From: an uncultured Pseudomonadales bacterium
Lineage (GTDB): Bacteria > Pseudomonadota > Gammaproteobacteria > Pseudomonadales > Azotimanducaceae
Length of the DNA: 64,000 nt
Reading direction: 5' to 3'
NCBI GenBank assembly: GCA_958296405.1
Contig: OY282519.1
Span: forward strand, 2,774,132 to 2,838,131
Shown here: one piece after another, positions 14,930-16,592 of the stretch
How the letters are laid out: the number at the start of each line of letters is the position of its first letter
Position numbering within the stretch: the stretch's first letter is position 1
Program-made: the position numbers and the translations under genes
Notes under the pieces: model-generated
The model's database searches: none
What the model was told of the DNA's origin: nothing
Seen by the model: the letters and a program-made list of their open reading frames with translations, nothing else

Positions 14930-14969
14930 AAAACGAAAGAACCCCGATGGACGCTGCCTGTCGGGGTTC
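14930..14969 (-). terminator. Intrinsic terminator of an attenuator before the DAHP synthase
   Basis: In the transcript, GAACCCCGA (14969 to 14961) pairs perfectly with TCGGGGTTC (14947 to 14939) around a 13-base loop and is followed by TTTCGTTTT, a classic intrinsic terminator, placed 9 bases before the gene's start codon. Such a terminator inside a leader must be conditional. A competing hairpin is possible: GCTGCCT (14983 to 14977) with AGGCAGC (14959 to 14953), whose loop would sequester the terminator's 5' arm. A further upstream stem follows the leader stop codon (about 15016 to 14989). Confidence 0.75.
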
Positions 14970-15017
14970 CGGGAGGAGGCAGCTTGGTGCGCCCCTCGAT
15001 GAATCAAGCGAGGCGCT

Positions 15018-15086
15018 CTAACGCAGGCGATAGCCAAACCAAGAGCCCGACCAATCGGTTCGCAGCGAACCTTGGCCGGGCGACAT
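15018..15086 (-). CDS. Aromatic-amino-acid leader peptide (attenuator peptide)
   Basis: A 22-codon reading frame ends with TAG at 15020-15018, 98 bases before the DAHP synthase start. Near its end it encodes WSGSWFGY: two Trp, one Phe and one Tyr codon within eight codons, extreme enrichment for the three products of the pathway. A GAGG ribosome site lies 11 bases before the ATG at 15086; an in-frame ATG at 15113 would give 31 codons. The terminator described at 14969-14930 follows. This is the layout of ribosome-mediated attenuation: stalling at scarce aromatic tRNAs would favour the antiterminator. The peptide itself probably has no other function. Confidence 0.75.
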   Translation of the reverse strand: MSPGQGSLRTDWSGSWFGYRLR

Positions 15087-15214
15087 CACGCCAACTGCCT
15101 CGTTGAGCCTCATGCGCGGCATTGTGCTGCGTATTCTGGGAAAAATCAACAACTGCCGAACGCGGTGCGCGGAATGGTAAAGTTGATCGTCGTCCCGTCG
15201 CCATTGGAGCCACC

Positions 15215-15635: not shown

Positions 15636-16592
15636 TCAAGGTTCGTCTGCACGGGAGAGCCAATCTCGGGGCGGCAGAAAGCGTTCCGCCAACTCCGCTT
15701 CAGGCGAACCGGGCGCGGGGCGCCAGCCGTAGCGCCACTGCGCTCTGGGCGGCAGCGATGCCAGCACGGATTCCACCCGCCGCCCGGACTGCAGGCCGTA
15801 GCGCGTGCCGCGGTCAATGGCGAGGTTGAACTCGGCGTAACGGCCGCGGCGCAGCAACATGAACGCTTCCTCGCGCTCGCCCCAAGGCATCGCCGCGCGG
15901 CGCTCGAAGATGGGCGCGTAGCCGCGCAGGAACGCGCTCCCCACGGCATCGACGAAGGCGAAGCTGGCGTCGAAGCCGCCGCGCGTCCAGTCGTCGAAGA
16001 AGATGCCCCCCACGCCGCGAGCTTCGCCGCGGTGCTTGAGGAAGAAGTAGTCGTCGCAGTTGCGCTTCAGTTCGGCGTGGAAGCCGCCATGCGCTTCGCA
16101 TGCGTCGCGCGCAACGCGGTGCCAATGCACCACATCCTCTTCGAACGGATAGTGGGGCGTGAGGTCGAAGCCGCCGCCAAAGTGCCAGGCTGGCACCTCA
16201 GGTGGGTGGGCGGGGACAGGGCGGGGAAGGGTGGCCGCGACGAGGAAAAACCGCAGGTTCATGTGCGCGGTGGGCACATACGGATTGCGCGGATGCACGA
16301 TCAACGAAAGGGCAACGGCTTGGAACGGCTGGCCGGCAAGATGCGGATTGCGCTCGGTGGCGGCGGCCGGCAAGGCCGCGCCGACGCTGTGGGTGAACAG
16401 CACCGCGGCCTTCTCGATGGCAGCGCCATCCTGCAGCACGCGCGGCCGCGACAGGCCGCCGCCAGGGGTTGCCAAATCCTCGCCGCTGAACCGCCGCGCG
16501 CCGTCAAGCCGCTCCAGCTCGCGGATGATGGCGGCTTGTCGCTTGAGGAAACAGCGCCGCACGGTGGCGACCCAAGCGGCTTCGTCCATCAT
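15636..16592 (-). CDS. hemF: Oxygen-dependent coproporphyrinogen III oxidase
   Basis: HemF performs the aerobic decarboxylation of coproporphyrinogen III to protoporphyrinogen IX in heme synthesis. The 318-residue protein shows GGGLSRPRVLQDGAAIEKA near the N-terminus, HPRNPYVPTAHMNLRFF, WHFGGGFDLTPHYPFEED and the conserved C-terminal segments ending ARFLPPRDW-like. The first motif is somewhat diverged from the usual GGGGSRVLQGG form, while the HPRNPYVPT block is intact. Its start lies 17 bases from a 110-bp block that is duplicated at 17674-17783, so hemF and the acyl-CoA dehydrogenase were once divergent neighbours. Confidence 0.94.
   Translation of the reverse strand: MMDEAAWVATVRRCFLKRQAAIIRELERLDGARRFSGEDLATPGGGLSRPRVLQDGAAIEKAAVLFTHSVGAALPAAATERNPHLAGQPFQAVALSLIVHPRNPYVPTAHMNLRFFLVAATLPRPVPAHPPEVPAWHFGGGFDLTPHYPFEEDVVHWHRVARDACEAHGGFHAELKRNCDDYFFLKHRGEARGVGGIFFDDWTRGGFDASFAFVDAVGSAFLRGYAPIFERRAAMPWGEREEAFMLLRRGRYAEFNLAIDRGTRYGLQSGRRVESVLASLPPRAQWRYGWRPAPGSPEAELAERFLPPRDWLSRADEP

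Follow-up and report, generated by a model that had tools for sequence, protein, structure and literature searches.

At the first step of the aromatic pathway, Escherichia coli serves the three end products with three isozymes and two repressors. In the textbook layout of the trp and his attenuators, the 3' arm of the antiterminator is the 5' stem arm of the terminator, and the enterobacterial ilv and thr leaders answer to several amino acids. The trpL of Sinorhizobium meliloti is leaderless, answers to Trp only, and stands in front of trpE(G). The aroR-aroF attenuator of Corynebacterium glutamicum (Neshat et al. 2014) carries a Phe-Tyr-Phe leader and responds to Phe only, Tyr being without effect, according to the consulted parts of PMC11802643 and PMC4046766. 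The excerpted parts of three further sources describe the uORFC-13-1 motif before aroF in Acholeplasma, in which at least one Phe is encoded by a U run (PMC8632094), an early proposal concerning E. coli aroF (Camakaris 1980, via PMC8632094 and PMC2659441), and the LEU element before leuA in Actinobacteria, in which Leu codons pair with the Shine-Dalgarno box of leuA (PMC1262725). Neither aroG nor DAHP occurs in the portion of a survey of premature terminators at hand (PMC2965389). In the portion of the literature on leader attenuation of DAHP synthase, aroG or aroF covered here, no Trp/Phe/Tyr leader was found; Neshat 2014, Panina 2001 and Vitreschak 2004 lay outside its scope.

The window analyzed here, a stretch of 64,000 nucleotides from an uncultured Pseudomonadales bacterium whose genome is 3.8 Mb in a single contig, carries on its minus strand a short leader ORF, a GC-rich stretch, an intrinsic terminator and a DAHP synthase gene (Table 1). 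As judged from sequence comparison, the locus very probably subjects the DAHP synthase gene to ribosome-mediated transcription attenuation. An earlier note had proposed an attenuator here from a minus-strand leader with Trp, Phe and Tyr inside eight codons before the stop, a 9-bp terminator just before the gene, and a competing 7-bp hairpin hiding the 5' arm of this terminator. All of these elements were confirmed: the eight codons run from W21 to Y28, the terminator has an additional outer G-U pair and an interrupted T-tract, and the competing helix has its 3' arm in the terminator loop. The proposal as a whole is supported by the conserved codons, terminator and helices described below, and a helix further upstream (z:a) was added to it, which offers a means by which a ribosome that has reached the stop codon could set the switch. 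In the translation of the window, an earlier in-frame ATG would add three N-terminal residues to the leader peptide.

Table 1. Features of the putative attenuator locus, with positions counted from the first letter of the window.
Feature	Position	Strand	Description and basis
Weak sigma-70-like promoter	15149-15121	-	TTGATT 15149-15144, 17 nt, CACAAT 15126-15121, 7 nt before leader ATG
Leader ORF	15113-15018	-	31 codons, ATG 15113-15111, peptide MRLNEAVGVMSPGQGSLRTDWSGSWFGYRLR, ending DWSGSWFGYRLR before stop TAG 15020-15018
Leader Trp codons	15053-15051 (W21), 15041-15039 (W25)	-	Sequence reading
Leader Phe codon	15038-15036 (F26)	-	Sequence reading
Leader Tyr codon	15032-15030 (Y28)	-	Sequence reading
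Segment z, GCGCCTC	15010-15016	-	Directly after stop codon; predicted to pair with a
Segment a, GAGGGGCGC	14989-14997	-	Predicted partner of z or b; swap test, folding, column counts
Segment b	14973-14983	-	Core GCTGCCT 14983-14977; predicted to pair with a (termination) or b' (antitermination)
Competing helix b:b'	14983-14977 / 14959-14953	-	7 bp; loop contains terminator 5' arm; 3' arm in terminator loop
Intrinsic terminator	14969-14939	-	9 Watson-Crick pairs and one outer G-U; 13-nt loop
Segment c, terminator 5' arm GAACCCCGA	14969-14961	-	Sequence reading, column counts
Segment b', AGGCAGC	14959-14953	-	Within terminator loop; predicted antiterminator partner of b; covariation, swap test
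Segment c', terminator 3' arm TCGGGGTTC	14947-14939	-	Sequence reading, column counts
T-tract TTTCGTTTT, interrupted	14938-14930	-	Sequence reading
Shine-Dalgarno GGAGG of DAHP synthase	14929-14925	-	Outside every named helix
DAHP synthase, class I AroFGH type, 358 aa	14920-13844	-	TIGR00034, 504.6 bits, above cut-off

Upstream on the same strand, an ORF of 318 aa ends at 15636, about 520 nt before the leader. A BON-domain ORF (PF04972; 15122-15547, plus strand) lies between the two and starts divergently beside the putative leader promoter. On the other side, an ORF with NifU-like and Fe-S biosynthesis domains (PF01106 and PF01521; 13091-13819, plus strand) is convergent with the DAHP synthase gene, and a similar reading frame was found at the same place in several relatives. 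Across the whole window, the Rfam families (amino-acid leaders, T-box, riboswitches) gave no match at the gathering score. A simple promoter and terminator scan, at its thresholds, found neither before the DAHP synthase gene; the terminator was missed because the 8-nt loop limit of this generic scan excludes a loop of 13 nt.

The sole DAHP synthase found in the window genome is the one class I enzyme, a class II enzyme having been sought and not found. This genome holds a second PF00793 match, which is presumably KdsA. Neither TrpR nor a TyrR-type HTH was found in the genome, and this fits the contrast drawn in the earlier note with the control of E. coli by TyrR and TrpR. No such leader or terminator was seen by eye upstream of trpE in the window genome. 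Two to three class I matches were found in 27 of the 37 genomes of family f1 (the GTDB family of the window genome, which has many genera); therefore, the leader does not depend on there being only one isozyme.

A leader followed by a terminator precedes a DAHP synthase gene in 30 of these 37 genomes, including G024 and the atypical G020, in which 86 nt separate the leader stop from the terminator. The leader was absent from the copy read in five genomes. In G014, G029 and G030, the sole DAHP synthase found is more distant (49-53% identity) and has no leader; in G017 and G028, the closest copy, which was the copy read, has none, and second copies exist. G031 possesses a leader-like ORF with the terminator absent, and G025 is interrupted by a contig end. 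Outside f1 in the same order (21 genomes), leader plus terminator was seen in none of the 11 best-copy upstream regions read by eye, three of which (L021, L025 and L029) hold small ORFs with at least three aromatic codons. Among the best 80 public loci, the leader was found in five, all of uncultured gammaproteobacteria: COS4_bin_44 (L053), SZUA-307, Pseudomonadales cluster4_bin.67, TMED1 and RHO1_bin_72. For the remaining 75, the script reported no terminator or one upstream of a small ORF (L113, L122 and L128); it reported none for L053 and L081, and some terminators can escape it.

In a second family of the order (f24, 61 genomes searched), an aromatic leader was found in all four searched genomes of genus g60 (sites L165, L238, L241 and L253), an example of which, read by eye, ends with ...VGYSVGYWYWFRNGHA before the stop. 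Genus g330 carries a leader ending with ...GVFFYGYWFSRISRV before the stop at L239, the single site read of its four genomes. By eye, the f24 leaders precede genes that read as another type of DAHP synthase. At these five f24 sites, a b-like partner was again seen by eye in the terminator loop.

The covariance-model tallies (matches in at least 162 of 200, at least 214 of 369 and at least 52 of 61 sampled genomes) are not counts of the attenuator. Matches that read as ordinary terminators score 16.8 to 42.8 bits in this model, so only the sites with both the downstream gene and the leader read were used. Nine class-wide matches were read, and one of them (L165) is a DAHP synthase leader. L164 was rejected, as no DAHP synthase lies behind its Trp and Tyr codons, and L177, L178 and L180, situated before a membrane protein gene, were left out for want of a convincing leader peptide.

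The statistics on leader codons cover 79 distinct f1 leaders, those identical over the last 16 codons being collapsed into one. Six rows were set aside: L053; L224, for which no aromatic leader turned up; L233 and L234, which showed no DAHP synthase and may be thrS sites; and L146 and L236, which have unknown or masked letters within the leaders. By tblastn, a DAHP synthase was found downstream of 77 of the 79 leaders, two of the matches being weak (L045, E 0.001; L038, E 0.041); the two leaders with no match have too little sequence behind them. The leaders with a weak or missing match (L038, L040, L044 and L045) had been obtained as upstream regions of DAHP synthases to begin with. Of the 79 leaders, a set that includes that of the window, 69 carry all three of Trp, Phe and Tyr among their final 20 codons. 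Counted singly over the same 20 codons, 78 leaders have Tyr, 75 have Phe and 74 have Trp. Those without Trp are L141, L145, L040, L081 and L181; Phe is lacking from L151, L227, L228 and L033, and Tyr from L183. The distance to the stop peaks at 10 codons for Trp, 4-7 for Tyr and 3-6 for Phe, and the last aromatic codon stands at a median of 4 codons ahead of the stop. The aromatic share is 44-50% at codons 1-10 before the stop and falls to 4% by codons 21-25. The aromatic fraction amounts to 0.365 in the leader frame and to 0.077 and 0.132 in the two others. Since the leader frame had been selected for having the most aromatic codons, a blind test and controls were added.

The blind test relied on a model (R1) that was built from the RNA from the stop codon onward and includes no leader codons. 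For 52 R1 sites, the sequence was retrieved with the leader codons still unseen; at least three of the last 15 codons are aromatic in 49 of them, the failures being L224, L233 and L234. When L181, L183, L184 and L186, which were retained after their leaders had been seen, are counted in, the R1 sites outside the training set number 56, of which 53 have at least three and 51 at least four such codons; many of the blind-test sites share genera and are not independent. Of 20 control matches not belonging to DAHP synthase, one reaches three or more aromatic codons and none reaches four, and the corresponding proportions for shuffled upstream regions are 10% and 3%.

Behind the stop codon, the segments follow in the order z, a, b, c, b', c', with b' often identical in sequence to a. 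The helices a:b and b:b' both use b and are mutually exclusive, while c:c' is the terminator. The antiterminator arm b' lies in the loop of the terminator, not in its stem, and overlaps the top of the stem in a few relatives, for example L018 and L034. In a swap test on 27 sequences, the arms of one and the same sequence paired more stably than swapped arms for z:a (-12.1 vs. -9.2 kcal/mol), a:b (-16.5 vs. -13.1 kcal/mol) and b:b' (-13.1 vs. -10.6 kcal/mol), each with 0 of 20000 permutations. The controls z:loop and z:b had no effect (8204 and 5074 of 20000). The z:loop pairing was stronger than that with shuffled loops (0 of 300), probably because a and b' are alike. The border between a and b was taken from the a:b fold (by hand for L010, L040 and L081), so that the test favours a:b; the windows for z and the loop were not set in this way. 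L053, L033 and the near-duplicates L002, L004, L006 and L009 were omitted from the test.

By column counts, 85.1% of the b:b' cells are paired in alignment A3 and 86.0% in alignment A4, the latter being fitted to a:b and c:c' and not to b:b'. The middle pair of b:b' (60:98 on A4) is UA in 36 rows, CG in 35, UG in 5 and GC in 1, and is unpaired in 6. On A4 (84 distinct rows), 92.6% of the a:b cells and 97.9% of the c:c' cells are paired, as measured on an alignment fitted to both helices. The weakest helix by column counts is z:a, with 68.5% of cells paired and a covariation score reached by 15 of 500 shuffles. For b:b' on A3 and A4, for a:b and c:c' on A4 and in a further helix test, both the covariation score and the count of cells with changes in both partners beat all or nearly all of 500 shuffles, with the cells being sequences and not independent events. 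Counted by pairs instead of cells, changes on both sides exceed the shuffles only for a:b and c:c' on A4 (0 of 500); shuffles were as high in 102 (b:b' on A3), 98 (b:b' on A4), 270 (z:a) and 285 (the further helix test) of 500, because most of the covariation falls on one or two pairs in each helix. The letters of a, b and b' co-vary (G-C-G in 34 of 85 rows, A-T-A in 21, others mixed), and the b:b' run falls below four pairs at the aligned columns in 7 of the 85 rows, partly owing to alignment shifts. An opposite-strand artefact in A4 (L157:1461-1540) was kept for the column counts and removed for the 85-row tallies. A conserved leader ORF with covarying stems, which the earlier note had put forward as a check in relatives, was thus found, the stems covarying chiefly at one or two of their pairs.

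Folding for alternative structures, another check named there, was applied to the window. The minimum free energy (MFE) structure of the post-stop region of the window comprises a:b and the terminator (-34.3 kcal/mol); with b:b' enforced, the energy is -30.2 kcal/mol, 4.1 above the MFE, and the z:a helix forms unforced. In the full-length MFE structure, computed for the window alone, b pairs with the start of the leader ORF. RNAalifold on a MAFFT alignment of the post-stop region recovered the terminator only, an outcome probably due to the mutual exclusion of the remaining helices. If b:b' and c:c' were to form simultaneously, the connecting loops would be about 6, 1 and 5 nt, and a full pseudoknot would therefore be tight. 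Altogether, the comparison of sequences backs the leader codons, the terminator, and mutually exclusive predicted helices that fit their own sequences.

A TANNNT hexamer was found 6-10 nt upstream of an in-frame ATG in 57 of the 79 leaders, 7 being the commonest spacing. Within the same stretches, 62 of the 155 ATGs that are in frame have the hexamer at this spacing, compared with 3 of the 69 remaining ATGs. The 30 leaders with a spacing of 7 share the consensus TTGCA...CGCTATnAT..CCGCC-ATG. Given the spacing of these -10-like hexamers, the leader mRNA probably has its 5' end at the AUG or immediately before it, and may be leaderless in most of the relatives. The leader of the window is not among the 57, its hexamers being weaker and below the scan threshold. 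Judging from the -10-like hexamers of the relatives, transcription in the window may start upstream of 15113, the hexamers of the window being weak.

The second-best R1 site in the window genome (48.9 bits) lies before thrS (TIGR00418, 584 bits), and the third (30.9 bits) reads as an ordinary terminator. The leader at the thrS site (L190/L170; G000:C1:1588955-1589045, minus strand, outside the window) is rich in Thr and ends with ...MRFLSHTATTNATLVGWAA before the stop. Eleven f1 sites before thrS-like genes have 2-10 Thr in the last 20 codons; the frame was taken as the richest in Thr with no control, and the gene was assigned by family search for one of the 11 and by reading for the others. 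At the thrS sites, which were selected through R1 matches, the terminator loop again offers a complement to b (-16.6 kcal/mol with its own loop vs. -15.1 with a swapped one, 69 of 20000). These data support, and do not prove, a common RNA platform behind the leaders of DAHP synthase and thrS.

We propose that the switch would operate as follows. RNA polymerase would start at the leader AUG or a few bases before it, and a ribosome would translate close behind. With Trp-, Phe- and Tyr-tRNA all charged, the ribosome would arrive at the stop codon with its footprint over z; a:b would then form, b' would stay unpaired, the terminator c:c' would fold, and transcription would end. If one of the tRNAs were uncharged, the ribosome would stall about 3-10 codons ahead of the stop and z would be exposed. 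Free z would pair with a, and b, thereby released, would bind b' before c' is made. The helix b:b' would trap c in its loop (or in a tight pseudoknot), and polymerase would read into the gene. A ribosome covers about 12-14 nt beyond its A site. Since z adjoins the stop codon and most of the aromatic codons precede this stop by 3-10 codons, a ribosome that has arrived there would cover z and a stalled one would largely leave it free; we infer both the ribosome positions and the direction of the response. From the codon content, all three amino acids are likely sensed.

It is rather unlikely, in our judgement, that the attenuator answers in practice to one or two of the aromatics, with the other codons tolerated or serving to slow the ribosome. 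Such a restriction has a precedent in C. glutamicum aroR, where Phe limitation alone acts on a Phe-Tyr-Phe leader according to the part of PMC11802643 consulted, and it would suit both the 10 of 79 leaders in which one of the amino acids is missing and the position of Trp, usually the farthest from the stop (10 codons). However, the near-constant presence of each amino acid (78 of the 79 leaders for Tyr, 75 for Phe and 74 for Trp) is hard to explain for a codon that is not used, and the losses strike different amino acids in different leaders.

Two further readings leave the attenuator out or give its parts another role. Terminators close before genes can serve to end upstream transcription, and the same-strand ORF that ends at 15636 could supply such transcripts, with the leader ORF as a chance frame of the kind that reaches the aromatic counts in 10% (at least three) or 3% (at least four) of shuffles. 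Yet the codons, the stop position, the helices and the -10 spacing are conserved, and the opposite-strand BON-domain ORF intervenes between the upstream ORF and the leader; we regard this reading as the least credible of all. Only slightly better placed, and still very improbable, is the reading that the leader peptide or the short terminated RNA acts in trans, or that the structure governs translation of DAHP synthase. An attenuator peptide acting in trans has been reported from S. meliloti (peTrpL; PMC7298713, in the part consulted), but the N-terminal parts of the leaders appeared by eye to be very different between genera, and the Shine-Dalgarno sequence in the window takes part in none of the named helices. 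Roles in trans may exist in addition to attenuation in cis.

Returning to the preferred reading, attenuation in cis by a translating ribosome, one RNA element appears to integrate three end-product signals in a genome in which neither type of repressor was found. The natural leaders that lack one amino acid, together with the thrS form and the loop antiterminator, open the design rules of attenuators to direct tests. With somewhat less than even confidence, we put forward a wider view in which one family uses a modular platform: a fixed RNA switch, whose loop antiterminator captures the terminator in a competing or pseudoknotted structure, would be combined with exchangeable leaderless peptides (Trp/Phe/Tyr for DAHP synthase, Thr for thrS), distinct from the trp and his type, and would act as a true three-amino-acid sensor where TrpR and TyrR were not found.

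Leaders before DAHP synthase genes are already known from C. glutamicum, and the Trp/Phe/Tyr version is a new variant. The aroR-aroF system resembles the window's locus in its leader peptide before a DAHP synthase gene, its aromatic codons and the proposed stalling of the ribosome; it differs in belonging to an actinobacterium, in its Phe-Tyr-Phe codons, with Trp unmentioned in the parts of the sources consulted, and in the response to Phe only. The uORFC-13-1 motif, as far as its source was consulted, shares a short ORF and a terminator before a DAHP synthase gene, and is of another phylum and another structure, with Phe encoded by a U run. In S. meliloti trpL, as may hold for the leader ORF studied here, the ORF begins at the 5' end of the transcript, whereas its response is to Trp alone and its gene is trpE(G). 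The LEU element has a leader peptide and a conserved pseudoknot as well, but is built on pairing of Leu codons with the Shine-Dalgarno sequence, and a terminator-loop antiterminator is not described in the part of that source consulted. With the enterobacterial trp, pheA, his, ilv and thr attenuators, the locus shares a leader rich in end-product codons, alternative helices and an intrinsic terminator, and the alternation among z, a, b and b' resembles the helices of the his type. In contrast to those attenuators, which use the 5' stem arm of the terminator, that of the window uses the terminator loop. What stands out most in the system is this use of the loop and the existence of a thrS counterpart, and its three-amino-acid codon content is strong.
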